Virus record (IMG/VR): IMGVR_UViG_3300006921_000214
Coordinates: 1-20,829 of that record
Strand: one strand, 5' to 3'
Length of the DNA stretch: 20,829 nt
From: a virus
A program made the position numbers and the translations under genes. How positions within the stretch are numbered: the stretch's first letter is position 1; every line of letters begins with the position of its first letter. This document shows, piece after piece, positions 7,645-17,776 of the stretch. The notes under the pieces were generated by a model that was given only the letters and a program-made list of their open reading frames with translations, did not search any database and was not told the DNA's origin.

Positions 7645-8499
7645 ATGGGTTTGACCAATTTAAATGATAATAGACCAATACTAATAACAGGAAAAACAGG
7701 AACAGGAAAAACGACAAAAGCAAAACAACTACTACCCAATGCAGTTGTAGTTTATGCTAATGAAATGAATATACAGGACTTAGGTTCTATTCCTAAAGGT
7801 AATGGTATTATAATTGAAGATGTTAATTATAAACCTAAGACTGATTCCATTCTTAATGTTATTAGAAGGTACAGGGGAGCGATTGTATTAACTTCAATCA
7901 ATGAAAAAAATGTTCCCAAGACCATAAAAAATATGTGTCAAATTAAAAGGGCAGGTTCAAAGAATCACATGCTAGATTCTATTAAAGAATTAGCCCCTCA
8001 TAGTGAAGAACCCTTTTCCTTAGAGAAAGATACTTACTCATTAGTGAGTTTCTTTCTTAAAGAAACTGATAGGGACTTAGTATCAGAAGTATTGAAATTC
8101 AATAAGCCTTCTGACACTCAAGTTTTGTCTTGGATTGTTGAGAACATTCACCCCAACAAGATTCTTTTTATTGATGGCGTAGTAAAAAGAAGATGGTCGC
8201 AGAATTACTTTTATGAGATGTTAGCGTATTCTCATGAAGGTAATGTTCGTGGCAGAATAAATATGCCATACAGAGGTACTTATTCTAAAGTGCCTAGACT
8301 TCTAAAGAGAATCGGTATTAGAAATGCCGATACAAGAATCTTTAATCAGATGAAGCAGGATGATGAGTTTGTAAAGTATGCAAAATCTAAATTCAATAAT
8401 GGCGATTGTAGGATTTTATCTTTAGGAGAAAAGAAAAGAAGAAGAAAGACTGAACCTGTTAAGGTTCAGCAGAATAGTTTAGAACAATATATGGAGTGA
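7645..8499 (+). CDS. Reduced RFC large-subunit-like clamp loader ATPase, 284 aa
   Basis: A P-loop ATPase with Walker A GKTGTGKTT (16-24, Lys22), a Walker B-like IIIEDV (55-60) and a sensor-1-like AIVLTSIN (79-86) followed by KTIKNMCQIKRAG, the RFC order. The C-terminal domain has LSWIVENIHP (161-170) and RRWSQNYFYEMLAYSHEG (182-199), matching the 'WIDEN...ADR...YxLWxY' collar region of archaeal RFC large subunits. The tail is basic (KKRRRK, 263-268) and ends QNSLEQYM (276-283), a PIP-box-like clamp-binding motif, as archaeal RfcL proteins also have. The N-terminal EKYRPKT motif is missing and the size is about 60% of a normal RfcL. It lies 250 bases upstream of the RFC small subunit, which supports the call. 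Confidence 0.68.
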   Translation: MGLTNLNDNRPILITGKTGTGKTTKAKQLLPNAVVVYANEMNIQDLGSIPKGNGIIIEDVNYKPKTDSILNVIRRYRGAIVLTSINEKNVPKTIKNMCQIKRAGSKNHMLDSIKELAPHSEEPFSLEKDTYSLVSFFLKETDRDLVSEVLKFNKPSDTQVLSWIVENIHPNKILFIDGVVKRRWSQNYFYEMLAYSHEGNVRGRINMPYRGTYSKVPRLLKRIGIRNADTRIFNQMKQDDEFVKYAKSKFNNGDCRILSLGEKKRRRKTEPVKVQQNSLEQYME

Positions 8500-8504
8500 C
8501 AATA

Positions 8505-8759
8505 ATGGGAGTAAGAACAAATCAATTTATAACAAATATCCAAACCGTACTAGTTGGAAAAACTTTGACTACTAGAGAAGTATTCAATGGAGTTATTGAC
8601 TTAAAATTACATGGCGGTGGAAGAAGAAAGGTAGTACCTACCTTTATGCAAGTCGTAGGGTTATTAACAACTAACCCTGAATTTATACTAGTTAAAGAAG
8701 AACCTCAAACAAGAGGCCGGTCAATAAAATACTGGAGGAATAAAAATGCTATGGACTGA
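8505..8759 (+). CDS. Small winged-helix-like protein, 84 aa
   Basis: ATG at 8505 with GGAGTGA just upstream; an in-frame GTG at 8496 overlapping the previous stop is an alternative. The order fits a winged helix: helix (TREVFNGVIDL), basic turn GGGRRKVVP, helix (TFMQVVGLLTTNP), then a wing (FILVKEEPQTRGRSIKYWRNK). It lies between the two clamp-loader genes and overlaps the start of the second by 14 bases. It could be a regulator or a structural DNA-binding accessory. Confidence 0.6.
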   Translation: MGVRTNQFITNIQTVLVGKTLTTREVFNGVIDLKLHGGGRRKVVPTFMQVVGLLTTNPEFILVKEEPQTRGRSIKYWRNKNAMD

Positions 8760-9660
8760 AAAATATAGACCAAAGACTTTGAGAGATGTTAAAGGACAAG
8801 AACACTTTGTATTAGATGCGGAGTTATGGATAGAAGAAAAGAATATGCCTAATGTATTGCTTTATGGTAATGCTGGTTGTGGTAAAACTGCGGCAGGATT
8901 GGCGTTAGCAAGAACTATGTTAGGTGAATATGCTAAAGATAACTTTGTTGAAGTTAATGCTTCTGATGATAGGCGACTTGAAGTGGTAAGAACCACCATT
9001 AAGAATGTAGCGCAAAGCGGCACTATCGGTGATGTACCATTTAGAATCTGCTTATTAGATGAGATGGATGGTATGACTACTGATGCTCAAAATGCACTAA
9101 AGCGTATTATGGAAAGATATTCTGGTAATATAAGATTCATTATTACTTGTAATGACAAGAGTAAGATAATATACCCCTTGCAAAGTAGGTGTGCAAACTA
9201 CCATTTCAAACCACTGTCTAATGAAGTCATTTTAGAAGTAATCAAAGGAATACTTCAAAAAGAACAAGTAAATGTATTTAGTGACGATGATTTGAGTCGC
9301 CTTATATATGTTTTAGACGGTGACTTGCGTAGGGCAATCACCGAAATACAAGCGGCGAAAGCCTCCGGTAATTCTCTAACGAAACAAATAGAATCTTCAC
9401 TAGAAGAATACGATAAAATACTAATGCTAATACTAAATAAAAATCTAAATGAATCACTAAAGCAACTTCATAATCTTATTTATGAAGGTCGTAGTGTTAA
9501 AGAATTATGTTTAGGACTACACAATGCTGTAATAAACTCAAAAGAATTAGACAATCTAATCAAATTTAAACTACTAAGAACAATAGGAGAAAGCGAATGG
9601 CGTTCCACTACCATGACACCAAAGGTACTAATATCTTGGATGGTAGGACAATTAATATAA
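8746..9660 (+). CDS. rfcS: RFC small subunit, clamp loader AAA+ ATPase, 304 aa
   Basis: Opens and places the sliding clamp on primed DNA with the large subunit. Family motifs in order: WTEKYRPKTL (3-12), Walker A GNAGCGKT (41-48), NASDDR (71-76), Walker B LLDEMDGM (103-110), sensor 1 FIITCND (131-137), arginine-finger SRC (147-149) and sensor 2 GDLRRAI (192-198), then the helical collar. It has 304 residues against about 320 in archaea. All catalytic residues are visible. GGAGGAAT lies about 6 bases before the ATG, and the start overlaps the winged-helix gene. Confidence 0.97.
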   Translation: MLWTEKYRPKTLRDVKGQEHFVLDAELWIEEKNMPNVLLYGNAGCGKTAAGLALARTMLGEYAKDNFVEVNASDDRRLEVVRTTIKNVAQSGTIGDVPFRICLLDEMDGMTTDAQNALKRIMERYSGNIRFIITCNDKSKIIYPLQSRCANYHFKPLSNEVILEVIKGILQKEQVNVFSDDDLSRLIYVLDGDLRRAITEIQAAKASGNSLTKQIESSLEEYDKILMLILNKNLNESLKQLHNLIYEGRSVKELCLGLHNAVINSKELDNLIKFKLLRTIGESEWRSTTMTPKVLISWMVGQLI

Positions 9661-11253: not shown

Positions 11254-12046
11254 ACAAGGAACAGCAAGCAGTATGGATTTTGGGAAGAAACAGGAACAGT
11301 TTAACAGTAGGTTTCAAGAATTAATGGCTAATAAAAGAAAGCAGGTTAATTCAAGATTAGTGTTAGGTGTTTGGGGTCATCCCAAAACAGGAAAGACAGG
11401 AATCGCTTTGGATTTTCCCGATAGACCAATCTATGTTTTAGATTGGGATAAGGGCGTTGAATCAACATGGCGTGAGCATCATGACTCAACAGAAAGAATA
11501 CAGGTATATTGTCCTATTGAAATGAATAAGGATAACATTATTGATATACAAGCAAGTGAAGAAAACTCTCACATGTTTATCAAGTATGTTAGGTCTAAGA
11601 TTGAAGAAGGCGAGAAGCCTATATTCGTTCTTGACGGCGTTGATACTTGGCTTGATTCTTGTATCTTGAAGATTAACCCTAACCCGACTTTAGTTACAAA
11701 GGTTATGCCATTTCAATACGGTGCAAGAAACAAGACCTTCTATCACTTATTGGATTCAATCTATCTTTTAGATTGTGACATAGTTTACATAACTCATGAA
11801 ACTGAAAAGTACCACGACAGTACGCCAATTGGTATGATTGCTAATTGGAAAGATTGGGGCGGTAAGTTAGAACAAGAGATTCATTGTTCAAGAAAGAAGA
11901 TTAAGGGAGAGATACACTACTTGGCTGAATTAGTCGGTAGTCGCACTAATGGTAACTTAGTCGGTAAGACTTGGACTGTTAGACAAGGTACTCCCCCTAA
12001 TATCGTTTGGAATGGTATTCCCGAATTAAGGGAGGGTAAAGTTTGA
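11237..12046 (+). CDS. Sak4-like RecA-fold recombination ATPase (AAA_24 type), 269 aa
   Basis: Walker A GHPKTGKT (47-54) after LVLGVW, then RPIYVLDWDKG, a Walker B IFVLDGVDTW (129-138), and a strand IVYITHE before a C-terminal part with DWGGKLEQEIHCSRKK and LVGSRTNG. This order matches the phage AAA_24/Sak4 group of shortened RecA/Rad51 paralogues that assist single-strand annealing with a viral SSB. The N-terminal 40 residues are polar and basic. It has no extra N-terminal domain such as in RadA. ATG 11237 was preferred because GGTGA lies 5 bases upstream; GTG 11228 is the alternative. It lies near the SSB-like gene, as Sak4 genes often do. Confidence 0.75.
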   Translation: MSLTSKQGTASSMDFGKKQEQFNSRFQELMANKRKQVNSRLVLGVWGHPKTGKTGIALDFPDRPIYVLDWDKGVESTWREHHDSTERIQVYCPIEMNKDNIIDIQASEENSHMFIKYVRSKIEEGEKPIFVLDGVDTWLDSCILKINPNPTLVTKVMPFQYGARNKTFYHLLDSIYLLDCDIVYITHETEKYHDSTPIGMIANWKDWGGKLEQEIHCSRKKIKGEIHYLAELVGSRTNGNLVGKTWTVRQGTPPNIVWNGIPELREGKV

Positions 12047-12810
12047 TATTTAATGTGGAATCAAAATTATTAACAAAGGCTTTAGAGGATATACAAGGTA
12101 AAGGATTGTACTTAGGAGACAAAGGGTTTTCTAATTCCAAACTAAGTCCTTATGTCCTTATGGAATTAGAAGGAAATACATTGAGGCTATGGAATGGTGA
12201 TTCAACCTGCGGCATTACTTTGACTATTGAAGTTACAGGACAAACCAATGGTTCTTTTACAGGTAGTGCTGATACAGTAGTTCCTTATCTAAAGAAGTTT
12301 GATGGAGAAATTACAGTATCTTATAATGACTTCTTGGCTATTAGTGCTGGTACTAAATCAGCATCAATACCTGCGGCAGTTAATCATCCCAATATAGATG
12401 CAATAACTAGGATTAAGCAAATGACAACTGATGTTACATTTGAAGCAATACCTGAAAAACTCTTCACCTTCGGTGCAAAGAAGTTTGAGGGTGCATTTCA
12501 ACTAACTGCTGAATCTTTCAGTGATGCAATTAGCGGTTGTGAATTGGTTAAGAGTGGAGTATATCTTATCAATAGTGGAGATGGTAATGTATCTTTTAGT
12601 AGTGAGAATGGAACGGCTAACGCCTTTTGTGAAACACTGACAGCAATACACAGTGTCGGGGAACCTGCTACATTACAATATAGTGGGCCACTTCATAAGT
12701 TTGTAAAAGACCAGCCTTTAATTAATTTTTATGTACGAGATGACTTCCCGTTATTGATTGTAGGGCCAAATAAGATGGTGGTTAAAGCACCGTTTACTAG
12801 AGGGGATTGA
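12043..12810 (+). CDS. pcn: PCNA-like sliding clamp, 255 aa, TTG start
   Basis: Size (255 aa; PCNA is about 245-260) and pattern fit a DNA clamp of two similar halves. The first half has LSPYVLMELEGNTLRLWN, GSADTVVPYLKKFDGEITVSY and the PCNA-like SAGTKSASIP. The second has a parallel strand set ending INFYVRDDFPLLIVGPNKMVV, the position of the PCNA 'DYPLRL' strand, then KAPF. The interdomain-connector region is near 125-150. The TTG start overlaps the previous TGA, with GGAGGG about 7 bases upstream. The two PIP-box-like tails encoded nearby would bind here. The sequence is divergent but context is strong. Confidence 0.75.
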   Translation: MIFNVESKLLTKALEDIQGKGLYLGDKGFSNSKLSPYVLMELEGNTLRLWNGDSTCGITLTIEVTGQTNGSFTGSADTVVPYLKKFDGEITVSYNDFLAISAGTKSASIPAAVNHPNIDAITRIKQMTTDVTFEAIPEKLFTFGAKKFEGAFQLTAESFSDAISGCELVKSGVYLINSGDGNVSFSSENGTANAFCETLTAIHSVGEPATLQYSGPLHKFVKDQPLINFYVRDDFPLLIVGPNKMVVKAPFTRGD

Positions 12811-14469
12811 ATGATAATTAGTAGGTGTATGGATGGAAAGCATGTATTTAAATCTTGGAGAGAAAATGGAGAAAAGAAGTTTCTAATGGAAGCGTTTAGG
12901 CCATATTTCTATGTTAAAGAAGATGAAAAGGAACATGATAATTATTCACCTAGTAGGTATATCATAAGAAACTTTGAGTACGAAAGAGGTGATTGGGTTA
13001 ATCTAGATAAAGAAAGTCTAAAGAGAGTATATGTGGAAAACTCCTTTGACATCTATTCTGCTAGAAAGATGTTTAGTAAAACATACGAAGCAGATGTACC
13101 TTATACATTTAGATATGCAGTTGATACTATTTCAGAAATGCCTGAATATAAAATGCGTAAATGGTATTGGGATATGGAATGGCAACAAGGCGGAGAATAT
13201 CACGATTGTATTACTACTATTGTAATGTATGATAATTATGATGAAGAATATCATCAATGGGTTTGGTTTCCTGATTGGCCTTCGGATTTTTCTGCAAGAC
13301 AACCGAATAATAAATTCTTTTTTGATAATGAAAAAGACATGATTGAATCTTTCATTAATACAATGATAGACAAAGACCCCGATATGCTAATTGCTTGGTT
13401 CGGTAACTTTGCAGATATACCTAAACTTCTTGAAAGATGCTGTGCGTTAGGAATCAATCCTAACAGGATGTCTCCAATTAACCGCATAGATGGTCTTAAA
13501 AAGAGCAAGGGTGGCTTCAAATACATTAAGGGTGAAAAGGGATTTTCACCTATCGAACAGCCCATAGGGGGTCGCATAACCCTCAACCTAGACCTTGCTT
13601 TTGAGAGACAATGGAATGATTCACAAAGAGGAACATTACCTTCTTTAAGTTTAGATTATGTTTCAGAAATGCTATTAGATAAAAAGAAACTAGTAAGTGA
13701 GAAATTCCCAGACCCTAACGAGTTTTACCGTAGGGCTTGGTTAGAAGATACTGAAACTTATTTGGAATATGCTTTGAAAGATGTTGAATTGATTGTTGAA
13801 ATAGATGAAACTAATTATTGTAGTGAAGCAATTATAGCACTTCAAAGATTATTGAAAGCACCTTTCGATGCTTGTTTTTATGCAAGTCATATGGGTTCAA
13901 TTTACTTTATGCGTAATGCTTGGTGGATAGCACCAACAGGAAACAAAAAGGCTGAAAAAGAATCGTATAAAGGGGCCATGATTTATGACCCGTTAAGCGA
14001 GGACACTAACGGACTACATCTTAATGTGGCGGCGTTTGATTATAGCGGATTGTACCCTAGTATGATGATAGCACGAAACATTTCATTTGAAACCAAATCA
14101 TCTGAACCTACGGAATTTGGAGTTAATATCTTAACACCTAGAGATTTCAGCGAAGTTACTGAAGTGGAGATGCTTTATTACAAGACGGATAAGTTAGGTT
14201 TGTTACCTAAATCTGTTCTAGAGTTAAAGGAACTGCGAAATGAATATAAGCGTCTTATGCGAGAGGCTAGGGAATCGAATAATGATAAAGACTACATTAA
14301 GTGGTATAACAATCAAATGGCAGTAAAACGCCTATCTGCATCTTTTTATGGCATAATCGGATATACTGGTTTTGCTTGGGCTGATGTCGATTTAGCCGCT
14401 TCAATAACTGCAAGCGCAAGAGAAGCAATTAGATTAGCGGCATTTAAAGCAAAGGAGATGAAAATATGA
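12811..14469 (+). CDS. polB: DNA polymerase B, N-terminal half (exonuclease, motifs A and B), 552 aa
   Basis: Replicative polymerase split in two genes; this part has the proofreading domain and most of the palm. Visible: Exo I WDMEW (Asp121, Glu123), Exo II NFADIPKLL (199-207, Asp202), Exo III YALKD (320-324), a YxGG-like YKGA, motif A FDYSGLYPSMM (409-419, catalytic Asp410) and motif B KRLSASFYGIIG (506-517). In motif B the family's conserved Asn reads Ala510. The protein stops after LAASITASAREAIRL, about 10 residues before where motif C should begin. The rest is encoded at 15389. The TGA stop of the clamp abuts the ATG, and the next gene starts within the stop. A 3'-5' exonuclease should be intact. 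Confidence 0.92.
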   Translation: MIISRCMDGKHVFKSWRENGEKKFLMEAFRPYFYVKEDEKEHDNYSPSRYIIRNFEYERGDWVNLDKESLKRVYVENSFDIYSARKMFSKTYEADVPYTFRYAVDTISEMPEYKMRKWYWDMEWQQGGEYHDCITTIVMYDNYDEEYHQWVWFPDWPSDFSARQPNNKFFFDNEKDMIESFINTMIDKDPDMLIAWFGNFADIPKLLERCCALGINPNRMSPINRIDGLKKSKGGFKYIKGEKGFSPIEQPIGGRITLNLDLAFERQWNDSQRGTLPSLSLDYVSEMLLDKKKLVSEKFPDPNEFYRRAWLEDTETYLEYALKDVELIVEIDETNYCSEAIIALQRLLKAPFDACFYASHMGSIYFMRNAWWIAPTGNKKAEKESYKGAMIYDPLSEDTNGLHLNVAAFDYSGLYPSMMIARNISFETKSSEPTEFGVNILTPRDFSEVTEVEMLYYKTDKLGLLPKSVLELKELRNEYKRLMREARESNNDKDYIKWYNNQMAVKRLSASFYGIIGYTGFAWADVDLAASITASAREAIRLAAFKAKEMKI

Positions 14470-14672
14470 ATAAAAGATGTCAAGTATGGACTAACAAAAT
14501 TATAGCAGAAATGAAAGAACCTTTCACTGCTCTTACCATAAGAGAGAAATTAGTAGAACGCCATAAATCAAACTATATTGAAAGTAATACATCAATAGGC
14601 CAATACCTTTCAAGGCATTGTGTATTGATAGGTGTATCTGATTCTAGGCATGTTTATAGGAAATGTGATTAA
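14466..14672 (+). CDS. Small winged-helix-like protein inside split polB, 68 aa
   Basis: ATGA overlap with the first polB gene, with GGAGATG as binding site. The order helix (WTNKIIAEMKEPF), TALTIREKLVER, helix (TSIGQYLSRHCVLIG), short wing (RHVYRKC) fits a winged-helix DNA-binding domain, similar in size to the protein at 8505 but not clearly a copy. First of five small genes between the polymerase halves. Confidence 0.62.
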   Translation: MNKRCQVWTNKIIAEMKEPFTALTIREKLVERHKSNYIESNTSIGQYLSRHCVLIGVSDSRHVYRKCD

Positions 14673-14673
14673 T

Positions 14674-14844
14674 ATGATGACAAAACATGTAACAGTAAAA
14701 GTATCATACGATACAGAAGAAACTTGGAATACTACTTTACAAGAAATAAAAGAACTATTTCAAATGATGAATAACTTGAAGCGTCATGCTATCATTTTAG
14801 AAGTGGAGCAAGGTGTTAATCATGATGATGGACAAAACGAATGA
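14674..14844 (+). CDS. Unknown small protein, 56 aa
   Basis: ATG at 14674 directly after the previous TAA, with GTGATT upstream (a partial GGTGAT). A second ATG at 14677 is possible. The sequence has a strand (KHVTVKVSYD), a Met-rich helix (TTLQEIKELFQMMNN) and a strand (HAIILEVE), in a beta-alpha-beta order, ending in a polar tail. No family. The end overlaps the next microprotein by 23 bases. Confidence 0.5.
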   Translation: MMTKHVTVKVSYDTEETWNTTLQEIKELFQMMNNLKRHAIILEVEQGVNHDDGQNE

Positions 14845-14953
14845 ACTCCTAGAAGAATTGCTGGCTATGATAGCAAAGAGTAACAAGATATTGATGATGG
14901 TAAATATCGTGAACATAGCAACCATCATAACAATAGTGACGGTGATAATATGA
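14822..14953 (+). CDS. Tail-anchored membrane microprotein, 43 aa
   Basis: Three ATGs in a row (14822, 14825, 14828) follow GGTGTTAATC. The frame is open to a TGA that overlaps the next ATG as ATGA. The first 20 residues are amphipathic and charged (DKTNELLEELL); about residues 23-43 are almost wholly hydrophobic (ILMMVNIVNIATIITIVTVII) and long enough to cross a membrane, ending right at the stop. It could be holin-like, an anti-holin, or a host-membrane modifier. No family can be assigned. The overlapping chain supports translation. Confidence 0.55.
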   Translation: MMMDKTNELLEELLAMIAKSNKILMMVNIVNIATIITIVTVII

Positions 14954-15174
14954 ATGAAGAAATTAAAAGATTAACAATGGAAAATGAAGCATTAGCAGAA
15001 AGAATAAAAAGTCTTGAGAAAAGAATTAGACTTTTAGAAGATGAGCAAGAAAATATTCCTTCTGTATATCATGTAGCGAAAGCAATTCATGAAATACAAA
15101 ATGACCTTAAAAGCCTTCACCCCGAATTACATTTTAATAATTCAGTGTATGCGCCCGATAAGGTGGGGAATTGA
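14950..15174 (+). CDS. Coiled-coil protein, 74 aa
   Basis: ATGA overlap with the previous gene; GGTGAT lies 3 bases upstream. Residues 1-35 are a heptad-like leucine/isoleucine helix rich in Glu and Lys (EEIKRLTMENEALAERIKSL, then EKRIRLLEDEQE), a likely coiled coil and possible oligomerisation part. The C-terminal half has a shorter helix (VAKAIHEIQNDLKSL). No enzymatic motif. Possible partner of the membrane microprotein or the polymerase halves; unproven. Confidence 0.62.
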   Translation: MNEEIKRLTMENEALAERIKSLEKRIRLLEDEQENIPSVYHVAKAIHEIQNDLKSLHPELHFNNSVYAPDKVGN

Positions 15175-15383
15175 TGCCCTTTACTTATGATAGGACTTGG
15201 GCTGAAATACACACTATGCTTGAAAAAGCCGAAAGAAAACAGAATATGCACTATACTAAAATGCAGAGTCCAAGTAAGAAAGACCGCATTTATCACATGA
15301 GAAACTACAAGGCATTGGAAGGAGTAATCAAAGCCCTAAAGTGGACTCTTGGAGATAAAGATATAGAACATCCATTGGAGTGA
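15174..15383 (+). CDS. Unknown helical protein, 69 aa
   Basis: ATG at 15174 shares a base with the previous stop; GGTGGGG is 6-10 bases upstream. The in-frame TTG at 15171 is an alternative. The protein is basic and helical (WAEIHTMLEKAERK, then KKDRIYHMRNYKALEGVIKALKW), and ends in HPLE. Function unknown. It is the last gene before the polymerase C-terminal half, with GGAGTGAT at its end forming that gene's binding site. Confidence 0.6.
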   Translation: MPFTYDRTWAEIHTMLEKAERKQNMHYTKMQSPSKKDRIYHMRNYKALEGVIKALKWTLGDKDIEHPLE

Positions 15384-15388
15384 TAATC

Positions 15389-16276
15389 ATGAAAGTAGTT
15401 TACGGACATACTGATTCTATTTATGTTCAGATTGACTCTATTGAAAGAGCAGAAGAATGTATTAAAGAGATTGAAACTAGCGTTAGAGAATCCTTTCCTA
15501 ATGTTATGGGATTAGATGAACACCCCGTAGTATTAGAGTTTGAGAAATACTATTCTGCTTTAGGAGTAGGAGTAACTAAGAATAGAAATGCTGGTATGAT
15601 TGTATGGGAGGATGGTAATTATTTAGATAAACCTAAGTTTACCATGACGGGTTTTACTGCGAAGAGAGTTAGTGAAACTCCCTTCTCAAAAACTATTCAG
15701 ACTGATGTACTAAAGATGTGGGTTAACTCTAAAACGGAAACTGAAATCTTAGCATATTTGCATGGTAAATATGCTGCTACTCTTAATGGTGAGTTAGAGG
15801 TAAAAAACTTCATCAAGAGAAGTAGGTTAAAATCTAATCGCTTTATGGTTAAGTGCGGTAAATGTAATACTAAATATCACATCACCGATTGTTTGAAAAT
15901 GGGATGGTGTAAAAAGTGCAGTAACAATACTAAAAACTTCACTACTTTAGAAGGGAAAAAACCCACATTTGGTTCCGGTATTGCCGGTGTATTATATGGT
16001 TGGGAAAAGAAGGATATGACCTTTGACGACTCTTATCTTTATCTTAAAGTAAAGAGTGTTAACGATAGTTATACAAATCCTTTGACTAAGGAAATAAGAA
16101 GCGTGGAATATGTTTCCGGCACAACCTATGCAGACTTTGAAAGTTATACGGTTGATTGGTCACACTACGCAGAACAGGTCTTAAAAAAGGCCGAGCCGAT
16201 TTACAAGGCTATGAAATGGGACTTATCTAGTATAAGGACTGGTAAAATACAAAGAAAATTAGATGATTGGTGGTAA
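15389..16276 (+). CDS. polB: DNA polymerase B, C-terminal half (motif C, thumb, zinc ribbon, PIP-like end), 295 aa
   Basis: Completes the polymerase encoded at 12811. It begins MKVVYGHTDSIYV, which is motif C of the palm with the first Asp replaced by His (usual YGDTDS); the second Asp (residue 9) is kept. After FTAKRVSETPFSKTIQTDVLK comes the thumb, carrying an inserted zinc ribbon (CGKC at 156-159, Cys168, CKKC at 174-177). The end, QRKLDDWW (288-295), has the QxxLxxWW form of a clamp-binding PIP box, as in archaeal PolB ends. ATG 15389 has GGAGTGAT upstream; the in-frame GTG at 15380 is an alternative. The halves join without apparent loss, so they should assemble as a heterodimer. No intein residues are visible. 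Confidence 0.88.
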   Translation: MKVVYGHTDSIYVQIDSIERAEECIKEIETSVRESFPNVMGLDEHPVVLEFEKYYSALGVGVTKNRNAGMIVWEDGNYLDKPKFTMTGFTAKRVSETPFSKTIQTDVLKMWVNSKTETEILAYLHGKYAATLNGELEVKNFIKRSRLKSNRFMVKCGKCNTKYHITDCLKMGWCKKCSNNTKNFTTLEGKKPTFGSGIAGVLYGWEKKDMTFDDSYLYLKVKSVNDSYTNPLTKEIRSVEYVSGTTYADFESYTVDWSHYAEQVLKKAEPIYKAMKWDLSSIRTGKIQRKLDDWW

Positions 16277-16277
16277 T

Positions 16278-17183
16278 ATGAATAATGATGAAAAATATAA
16301 TGCGGTAATTTCTTCTATGCAAGATTTTACTTACGACTGGAAGCCCGAAAATTACGAAGACCCAAGTATGCCTATATTGAAGATAACTAAATCTTCTCTT
16401 GGAACATTTCAATGGTGTCAGAAAAAGTACGATTTTTCTTATATTCAGCGTTTGCCTCAAGACCAAACAGACGCTATGTTGAAGGGAACTATTTGTCACA
16501 CTACAAGAGAAAACTTTTTCAATGATTTTGATATTAAAAAGGCAGAATCTATGAGTGCTGATGAAGTGTTTGAGTATTGTCAAAGTCTTCATCCTATTGA
16601 TGATTACTTGGATATATCCATGACGCAATCCGCATTTGAAGCCGAGCGTTTTATTGAAGCAAGGGCAGAAGATAAGTTAGATGAATACTTACCTGTTTGT
16701 AATGAAGGTAAATTCGATGCTAATATAACTATTGACAAAGATACTAACCCTAAATATCCTCTAAGAAGAGATTATGTAATACACATACAAGGAATTATTG
16801 ACCGTATCTTTGAAGTAGATGGCGGCTATCTTCCTTTTGAATATAAAACGGGGCCGTGGAAAGACTACAAGAAAACTATGATGCGTAAAGAAATGGCATT
16901 TTATCAACTGTTGATTGAAAACTCTCCCGATGAAGTGCTTATTCAAAATGGATTAGACCCCGAAAAGAAGGTAACTCATTGGGGTTGGTACTATCCTGTT
17001 TCTAATTATGTGTTTTCACAAAAGGTAGCAAAAAGAACAATGACTTCTGTAATGAATCATATAGCCCATTTAATTTGGTCTTATGAGAATAGTCAATTCC
17101 CTGCAAAATTCTTTTACAAGACTTGTTCACATTGTTCCTTCTTTGGTATCTGTGATGCAGCACAAGAAGATACTTGGGTTTGA
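16278..17183 (+). CDS. RecB/Cas4-like Fe-S PD-(D/E)XK nuclease, 301 aa
   Basis: Core motifs: LKGTICH (His74), QGIIDRI (Asp175), FEYKTG (Glu188, Lys190) and an AFYQ helix (Gln210). Cys47 (QWCQKKY) and a C-terminal CSHCSFFGIC (Cys283, 286, 292) form the four-Cys iron-sulfur site typical of Cas4/AddB/RecB-family nucleases. It therefore likely degrades or trims DNA ends in recombination or replication. No CRISPR repeat or Cas1/2 gene is present, so a stand-alone viral nuclease is preferred. Length is longer than the roughly 200 aa of Cas4. ATG 16278 follows the polymerase stop closely, with GGTGGT upstream. Confidence 0.82.
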   Translation: MNNDEKYNAVISSMQDFTYDWKPENYEDPSMPILKITKSSLGTFQWCQKKYDFSYIQRLPQDQTDAMLKGTICHTTRENFFNDFDIKKAESMSADEVFEYCQSLHPIDDYLDISMTQSAFEAERFIEARAEDKLDEYLPVCNEGKFDANITIDKDTNPKYPLRRDYVIHIQGIIDRIFEVDGGYLPFEYKTGPWKDYKKTMMRKEMAFYQLLIENSPDEVLIQNGLDPEKKVTHWGWYYPVSNYVFSQKVAKRTMTSVMNHIAHLIWSYENSQFPAKFFYKTCSHCSFFGICDAAQEDTWV

Positions 17184-17187
17184 TATT

Positions 17188-17280
17188 ATGTTATCTTTAA
17201 TTAAAAGACTTCTAAGAAAGATAGGATTATTGTTAAGAATGCCCGAAAGTGAATGGTTAGAGAAAGGTGAAGAGGAATGA
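17188..17280 (+). CDS. Tiny amphipathic/basic protein, 30 aa
   Basis: ATG 4 bases after the nuclease stop. The first 17 residues (MLSLIKRLLRKIGLLLR) form a basic amphipathic helix and the end is EKGEEE. The last bases form the coupling cassette GGTGAAGAGGAATGA. The upstream binding site is weak. It may be a true microprotein or only a leader that couples translation of the next gene. Function unknown. Confidence 0.4.
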   Translation: MLSLIKRLLRKIGLLLRMPESEWLEKGEEE

Positions 17281-17405
17281 AATGTAAACTATGTAAAGAA
17301 GAAATAAAAGGCTACGGGCATTACCTAAGTAATGGTGGCTATTGTTGCGATACTTGTAATTGGTTAAAGGTTATACCAGAAAGAATGAGGGGGAATCATC
17401 TGTGA
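17277..17405 (+). CDS. Zinc-ribbon microprotein, 42 aa
   Basis: ATG in the cassette GGTGAAGAGGAATGA, overlapping the previous TGA. It starts MKCKLCKEEI (Cys3, Cys6) and has YCCDTCNW (Cys23, Cys24, Cys27), giving two CxxC pairs of a compact zinc ribbon, then a short basic end (RMRGNHL). The stop overlaps the next GTG start. The design is like the TTG-start protein at 1016. Probably nucleic-acid binding, unproven. Confidence 0.62.
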   Translation: MKCKLCKEEIKGYGHYLSNGGYCCDTCNWLKVIPERMRGNHL

Positions 17406-17776
17406 ATGACGATATGATTAAACAAAAGGTATTGGCTAGAGATTGGACATTTACAGAAATATCTAATCTAAAACATACAATAGACACGCTATGTAATGAA
17501 ATATATTCTGAATCTAAATTGATTGAACGGTTTGAATTAATTAGAGACATTAGAATAAATGAAAGTTATGTAGGTCATACATTTGAAGATGTGATGCGAG
17601 AAGCAATAAATACAAAACTTTCCGGCGAAATAGCCGGTGTAATAAGAAATATGCTAAATACAGCAACAGTGAATTTTGGAGGTAATAACAATGAAATATC
17701 CGAGGGAAGTATGGGCGGGGAGCCACATAAAGAACGCACCGCAGATGAAAAGAAAAGTAGTCTTATCGAGGAATGA
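17402..17776 (+). CDS. Unknown helical protein, 124 aa
   Basis: A GTG start overlaps the previous stop (GTGA), with GAGGGGG upstream; an in-frame ATG at 17414 is possible. The protein is mostly helical (FTEISNLKHTIDTLCNEI, IERFELIRDIRI, FEDVMREAI). The last 30 residues are polar and lie in a different frame over the start of the primase gene (86-base overlap), while the binding site of the primase sits at 17678-17683 inside it. No family recognised. Confidence 0.55.
   Translation: MNDDMIKQKVLARDWTFTEISNLKHTIDTLCNEIYSESKLIERFELIRDIRINESYVGHTFEDVMREAINTKLSGEIAGVIRNMLNTATVNFGGNNNEISEGSMGGEPHKERTADEKKSSLIEE

Follow-up and report, generated by a model that had tools for sequence, protein, structure and literature searches.

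The window analyzed here, the whole 20,829-base virus record IMGVR_UViG_3300006921_000214, carries a family B DNA polymerase (PolB) whose coding sequence is divided over two genes, with the break directly before motif C. It very probably represents a genuine two-subunit replicative polymerase of a magrovirus-like virus, which was parted by one old and probably insertional fission and whose seam has since been gaining and losing microgenes. An earlier note on this DNA had described a PolB that small genes interrupt between its motifs B and C, and the Pfam matches of both halves, the frames and the coordinates confirmed this description. The two halves lie in different reading frames, as noted before, and the genes are:

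12811-14469, + strand: PolB N subunit of 552 amino acids (aa), with the exonuclease domain, motif A (DYSGLYPS), the fingers and motif B (KRLSASFYG); the C-terminus is KAKEMKI followed by the stop codon.
15389-16276, + strand: PolB C subunit of 295 aa, with MKVVYGHTDS (motif C) at the start, the remaining palm and a thumb into which a CxxC...CxxC stretch is inserted (Pfam match).

The stretches named motif A and motif B in the N subunit are those which we take to be these motifs. The split pair is a family B polymerase. Both halves matched the Pfam profile DNA_pol_B above the cut-off, the N half at profile positions 28-197 and the C half at positions 221-362, and the N half additionally matched DNA_pol_B_exo1 and phrog_262. 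Sequence and fold comparisons led to the same archaeal PolB chains, with N followed by C (Foldseek E 1.6e-24 for N and 3.4e-05 for C). The presumed catalytic residues D121, E123, D202, D324, D410 and K506 were invariant in 49 rows of N halves or full-length proteins, and T8, D9 and S10 were invariant in 47 rows of C halves.

The same break was found throughout the relatives of the window. Viral contigs were scanned with the N half (best 80 of 507 relatives), with the C half (25 relatives), with a divergent query (best 80 of 475) and with a halovirus-led alignment (best 80 of 445); the two loci of the window's own record (L001 and L002) and three T4-like loci were excluded from the counts. Among 177 near-relative entries with an N half, in which overlapping loci of one contig were counted apart, none continued for at least 5 residues past the seam. 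In 134 of them the C half was seen, and in the remaining 43 the stored DNA ends before it. Hence the look into related viral genomes proposed in the earlier note returned no unsplit gene among these 177 entries, and other small-gene cargo was present between the halves. When deeper relatives were included, 173 of 260 loci were split, 55 ran off and 32 were unsplit.

Two pattern scans, whose contigs partly overlap those of the earlier scans, agreed with this picture. The pattern of the contiguous form (AFxA...VxYGHTD) occurred in 32 stretches and 28 of these were confirmed as an unsplit sister group, 26 of them being 39-44% identical to the N half of the window and two partial ones 49% identical over 53-59 residues; the split N halves were 51-82% identical to the N half of the window. 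A scan for the last palm helix (at least 120 rows listed, 116 loci examined) gave 112 helix matches, namely 86 split loci and 26 run-off or spurious ones, and no unsplit member among the 112 matches listed. Three of the 86 lie in open reading frames (ORFs) without the motif B expression, and L357 was recognized only upon inspection.

Quick trees were calculated for the N half (70 rows, 50 of them split) and the C half (71 rows, 51 split), with 20 unsplit rows and with L211 and near-copies left out. Each tree contained the unsplit sister and required a single change between the split and the unsplit state, with an SH-aLRT (Shimodaira-Hasegawa-like approximate likelihood ratio test) support of 99 (N) and 98 (C); a long-branch warning concerned mostly the unsplit outgroup rows L206, L199, L192 and L202 and the split row L244. 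The break is thus clade-wide and, with one change on the trees, of single origin.

Both halves are under purifying selection. The median ratio of nonsynonymous to synonymous divergence (dN/dS), a rough value here, was 0.130 for N (62 estimates) and 0.134 for C (51 estimates), based on 63 pair entries (three with the window and 60 drawn at random, repeats being possible) out of 195 pairs. If the halves were dead remnants or the product of an assembly error, neither this constraint nor the recurrence of the same break in more than 100 contigs would be expected. A second complete polB, which according to the earlier note would have reduced the halves to remnants, was searched for in 19 split records at full length, which may themselves be incomplete. 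In 18 of these records a single N match and a single C match were the only PolB hits, and the remaining one (L068, 184.7 kb) carried two N/C pairs. As no point in support of remnants or misassembly emerged, we consider this explanation practically negligible. The L068 contig (184,733 bases) is about twice the size of related long records and perhaps consists of two joined genomes.

At the break itself, two short signals flank the interruption:

14452-14469, + strand: left edge of the seam, with an AAGGAG ribosome-binding-like site within the last codons of N; the stop codon TGA overlaps the ATG (14466) of the first microgene (from the sequence).
15377-15383, + strand: GGAGTGA, ribosome-binding-like site of the C subunit gene (from the sequence).

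Because of the position of GGAGTGA and the conserved position of the methionine, the C half likely starts with the ATG at 15389 rather than with the GTG at 15380. A methionine exactly four codons ahead of the motif C tyrosine was present in 172 of the 173 split loci. For further counts the 173 loci were reduced to 122, the window included, by keeping one locus of each set that agreed both in the last 300 aa of N and in the gap, and to 121 by omitting L062, which lacks the methionine at the C start; near-copies remain in this set. Upstream of the C start, a Shine-Dalgarno-like core was found in 103 of 121 loci, compared with 206 of 2037 internal ATGs of the N gene. The last base and the stop codon of the N gene form ATGA in 96 of 121 loci.

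These signals bear on the possibility that N and C are joined into one chain at the RNA or protein level by an intron, trans-splicing or a frameshift. The halves do share order and strand in every split locus read, as such joining would demand. However, the gap is nearly all coding and varies in length (94-2819 bp) and content, the two halves carry separate stop or start signals, and the frames in the window differ. An Rfam search at gathering thresholds gave 0 matches to known RNAs in the window, and a group I or group II intron between the halves was rejected on this ground. We regard joining as very improbable.

The comparison with unsplit genes shows what happened at the join. The unsplit sister reads AFKAQELGYEVIYGHTDS across it, where the window has AFKAKEMKI-stop and M-KVVYGHTDS, so that no residue was lost and a start methionine was gained. 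The count of overlap or loss suggested by the earlier note, carried out by alignment to the unsplit relatives, likewise gave no lost or duplicated residue. Mapped onto KOD polymerase (1wn7_A), N position 546 corresponds to 527 and C position 2 to 535; by extrapolation the N half would end near KOD residue 533 and the new methionine would stand at 534. In deep split lineages the N ends are variable (e.g. EL, ELQ, EIGEEVAA).

The sequence ATGAAA occurs at 14458-14463 and at 15389-15394, as had been pointed out, but its interpretation as the footprint of a simple insertion did not hold, given that no residue is duplicated at the join relative to unsplit relatives. The repeat is equally explained by the conserved MKV start of the C half together with a KEMKV-like N end that doubles as ribosome-binding site and next start. 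The last 9 bases of N and the first 9 of C agreed in at least 7 places in 82 of 121 loci. A target-site duplication as proof of insertion was rejected, since no residue is duplicated and deep lineages end N elsewhere.

An old intein would be another origin of the break: erratic loss of an intein from the Pol-c site, as proposed for PolB3 of Methanobacteriales, with the small genes arriving later. The unsplit relative L202 has an intein-like insertion within motif C, and erratic excision of an intein was proposed for the split of the Methanobacteriales in PMC4104785. However, the seam lies about 7 residues upstream of the intein site, and no remnant is left, the N halves ending within a few residues of the seam and the C halves starting with methionine. 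Moreover, the complete unsplit sister genes (813-822 aa; L203, L204, L207, L209, L210, L215) are too short to contain an intein. The earlier comparison with the Pol-c site is correct insofar as the break is near that site; the match is not exact, as the intein of L202 interrupts motif C (YGD/TDS) about 7 residues downstream of the seam in extrapolated numbering. Intein loss appears unlikely to us. An intein as the present identity of the break was rejected because the N ends lie near the seam and 172 of 173 C halves start with methionine, and the absence of intein residues at the break, noted before, was confirmed. Intein-like insertions in unsplit relatives were seen in L202 (4935-8477, within motif C) and L211 (4923-8762, at motif B).

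The 919 bases between the halves (14470-15388) hold five + strand ORFs, in accordance with the five small genes of the earlier note:

14466-14672, + strand: island gene 1, 68 aa, family 3, in 76 of 121 islands; no Pfam match at E 0.1.
14674-14844, + strand: island gene 2, 56 aa, family 2, in 83 of 121 islands; dN/dS median 0.139.
14822-14953, + strand: island gene 3, 43 aa with a hydrophobic C-terminal half, family 0, in 106 of 121 islands; dN/dS median 0.131.
14950-15174, + strand: island gene 4, 74 aa, coiled-coil-like, family 1, in 90 of 121 islands; matches below cut-offs.
15174-15383, + strand: island gene 5, 69 aa, family 9, in 9 of 121 islands.

The labels given to these genes earlier stood only in part: the gene called winged-helix is without a Pfam match at the above threshold, and the coiled-coil gene has matches only below curated cut-offs. 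Island gene 3 is a probable membrane microprotein, judging from its sequence.

Across the 121 loci, + strand ORFs of at least 24 aa tile 98.8% of the gaps (666 ORFs; 393 of 787 junctions are exactly -4), compared with 55.6% for the minus strand and 32.3% for shuffled gaps under the same procedure, and none of the 121 islands was empty. Their content is diverse, with 89 families, 41 singletons and 93 arrangements. The most common families are the 43 aa membrane-type protein (106 islands), the coiled coil (90), the 56 aa protein (83) and a 69 aa protein (76), and the consecutive order 56 aa, membrane, coiled coil was found in 72 islands. In constraint, the membrane and 56 aa genes match the polymerase, and the coiled coil (median dN/dS 0.375) and 69 aa (0.341) genes are less constrained. 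As a guess, the core of 56 aa, membrane and coiled-coil genes might have an accessory role in replication such as membrane tethering.

At least three deep split lineages (L244, L213, L231) carry a relative of the membrane gene not in the island but downstream of C, which suggests that this gene has moved. The smallest gaps of 79, 82 and 85 bp (L373, L399, L372) hold one gene of 28-30 codons each and L227 holds two alike genes; single microgenes therefore seem to come and go at the seam. In L114 a DNA methylase gene (Pfam N6_N4_Mtase; 8475-9242) is located inside the polymerase island.

The first island gene often ends like the N half. The ending KE[ML][KE][VIAL] was present in 16 of 121 first genes and in 3 of 545 other island genes, and a copy of the 3' end of N (at least 17 of 24 bases) was found in 34 of 121 islands versus 5% of first-order Markov resamples. 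This pattern fits an insertion via recombination at this short sequence, but it is partly accounted for by the ribosome-binding site that is required in both places.

Alternatively, a homing endonuclease gene comparable to mobE or seg of T4-like phages may have made the break and later been replaced by small genes. Scans for endonucleases covered the families with a member of at least 90 aa and the window's own five genes, in total 32 island proteins (two of 34 chosen were excluded) plus the five of the window. Four families matched, three of the HNH or endonuclease VII type (one by PHROGs only) and one of the GIY-YIG type (T5orf172). With one or two representatives scanned per family, they occur in 10 of 121 islands and directly after the N stop in 7, and polymerase genes are favoured targets of such elements according to PMC2988022. 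The N-like ends of first island genes described above point in the same direction. On the other hand, no endonuclease was found in the other 111 islands, including the window (above the cut-offs of Pfam and PHROGs), among the families scanned, that is those with a member of at least 90 aa and the window's own. The short islands of L219, L255, L226, L227 and L231 hold genes of at most 65 aa, too small for such an enzyme, and the largest matching family was called by PHROGs and not by Pfam. As the four families are unrelated, a later invasion of the island is as likely. An endonuclease origin is a possibility that we entertain with reserve, though more readily than intein loss.

For the origin of the split we favour an insertion. 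Most likely, a small gene or cassette would have entered once, in the loop that connects the last long palm helix with the motif C hairpin. This would have cost no residue: a methionine was gained before motif C, and the codons at the N end (AAGGAG...ATGA) would serve the next gene. Afterwards the seam would have stayed open as a microgene island with a turnover of very small genes.

Separate starts, constraint on both and complementary predicted folds were observed for the N and C halves. In AlphaFold2 (AF2) models the N subunit reached a mean pLDDT (predicted local distance difference test score) of 90.2 and its sole stretch below 50 was 404-406, next to the motif A strand. The C subunit reached 78.5, with the thumb above 90 and values below 50 at residues 3-8 (motif C), 51-92 (part of the palm) and in the last four residues. 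We take the models as a hint at two parts that may need each other. In the proposed enzyme, the N subunit would bring the exonuclease, motif A and the fingers with motif B, and the C subunit the motif C hairpin, the remaining palm and the thumb. Both would be expressed from one operon, each half being translated from its own ribosome-binding site, and would join noncovalently into one active site that works with the viral clamp and clamp loader. Many split C halves share the CxxC...CxxC insertion of the thumb (window 15854-15919, C residues 156-177), which is absent from the unsplit L204 and the split L244. In the N halves of L104, L130 and L150, a CxxC...CxxC insertion precedes motif A; the window has none at this place.

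The polymerase genes are closely followed and preceded by their neighbours:

12043-12810, + strand: sliding clamp (PCNA) gene directly upstream of the N subunit (label by inspection).
16263-17183, + strand: PD-(D/E)XK nuclease gene directly downstream of the C subunit (Pfam PDDEXK_1, E 1.1e-13).

The joins with PCNA and with the nuclease are nearly closed, unlike the seam: the median junction was 4 bp for PCNA/N (n=119) and -10 bp for C/nuclease (n=116), and 1048 bp for N/C (94-2819, n=121). In the window, the nuclease/primase junction (17184-17675) is a second loose place of the operon and contains small ORFs.

Several observations weigh against an old fission that left a working enzyme with a uniquely open seam. 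Many loci are fragments, several of them on one contig. The seam is not the sole loose junction, as the median between nuclease and primase was 414 bp (n=103) and the junction between the P-loop ATPase (labelled by inspection) and PCNA exceeded 300 bp in 15% of 114 loci. Genes of the endonuclease families, as candidates for the inserting agent, are confined to the 10 islands mentioned. Median dS was 0.95 and 1.23 and thus near saturation, which makes the dN/dS values rough, and the low AF2 confidence may equally reflect a shallow alignment. Finally, motif C reads YGHTDS, with a histidine where the first aspartate usually stands (window 15407-15409, C residue 7). This last point is tempered by the same histidine in the unsplit sister (L203, L204, L207-L210, L215), from which it follows that the exchange probably predates the split; the haloviruses read keep YGDTDS. 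Primer-independent PolBs are without that aspartate and yet active, as stated in PMC7544198.

The two halves were also compared for exchange between lineages, using a half-identity table of 117 loci (five of 122 were excluded). The N half of L101 is 99.5% identical to that of L257 (C 55%) and its C half 98.3% identical to that of L110 (N 61.9%). Similarly, the C half of L102 is 99.7% identical to that of L110 (N 63.3%) and its N half 88.5% identical to that of L168. In both loci the likeness to the left parent stops at the N stop or at most 5 bases from it. Since stretches of 41-43 bases close to the N stop are identical between the putative parents, a chimaeric assembly is possible, and L101 and L102 are leads that may be either recombinants or assembly chimaeras. 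Strongly discordant pairs (residual >0.2; 4371 pairs, 94 loci) numbered 14 for N2/C1, 0 for PCNA/N1, 0 for N1/N2, 1 for C1/C2, 0 for C2/nuclease and 208 for P-loop ATPase/PCNA. The seam as the strongest recombination boundary was rejected, since P-loop ATPase/PCNA is far more discordant (208 vs 14), and a swap at the seam between L031 and L068 was rejected as well because identity already fades within the N gene. Tentatively, the seam could be a place that keeps capturing microgenes and across which polymerase halves of different lineages are newly paired. The N end would then serve as coding sequence, ribosome-binding site and recombination homology that is copied along by incoming genes, and the subunits would accept partners that are about 37-45% diverged in the half concerned (L101, L102).

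In this essential polymerase, a cut in the palm only a few residues from the catalytic hairpin has persisted while a whole virus clade diversified, which provides a natural test of the extent to which an active site can be split up and still evolve. The unsplit sister represents the undivided state, and the cases with a single gene of 28-30 codons show the minimal wedge. Being located between two recognisable gene ends, the island offers a clean setting in which the origin, movement and fixation of tiny viral genes can be followed.

Other divided family B polymerases differ from the one described here. In Nanoarchaeum equitans PolB is also encoded by two genes; these are non-adjacent and possibly trans-spliced by intein parts, according to PMC4104785, whereas the window has no intein parts. 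The archaeal PolB3 of Methanobacteriales likewise consists of two genes, as the same paper describes, but it is cellular and its split is attributed to intein excision, while that of the window is viral. No relative of the virus protein turned up when genome contigs were scanned with the N half. The T4-like phages 44RR and 25 have a family B polymerase in two genes as well (gp43A/gp43B), and for phage 25 the two proteins co-purify with polymerase activity (PMC2988022), which sets a precedent for the enzyme proposed here. There, however, the break lies before motif B, with motifs B and C together in gp43B of 44RR, whereas the window is broken after motif B and directly before motif C, a position that rules out a split of the 43A/43B type. 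Between the T4-like halves lies a short spacer (44RR) or a homing endonuclease gene (phage 25), compared with a microgene island in the window.

The unsplit sister (L203, L204, L207-L210, L215) and the PolB of the haloviruses HF1 (854 aa) and HVTV-1 (913 aa) are homologous along both halves, yet form one uninterrupted gene; YGHTDS is common to the split forms and the unsplit sister. The viruses with a split PolB resemble those thought to infect ocean archaea. A split of magrovirus polymerases is not mentioned in the accessible parts of PMC10160649, PMC7544198, PMC5332604 and PMC5628999, nor is any split in the Apasviridae profile of the International Committee on Taxonomy of Viruses (ICTV). 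The text of the 2023 ICTV profile of the Aoguangviridae does not describe the split, its position, an island or its conservation (PMC10768690). However, the legend of Figure 1 of that profile defines PolB-NTD/CTD as the N-/C-terminal domain of the family B polymerase for virus YSH_150918, and the map shows both beside RFC-S, PCNA and MCM. Among the papers searched, this profile alone uses that term. The split is thus already known as an annotation, and its position, single origin, unsplit sister and filling with microgenes appear to be undescribed in the literature searched. The profile lists GroEL/GroES, and the window shares GroEL/GroES-like genes (by inspection) with the Aoguangviridae. From this gene content and the halovirus-like PolB, which agree, we infer a magrovirus-like identity of the window virus, and PolB-NTD/CTD of the Aoguangviridae is probably the same split as that of the window.

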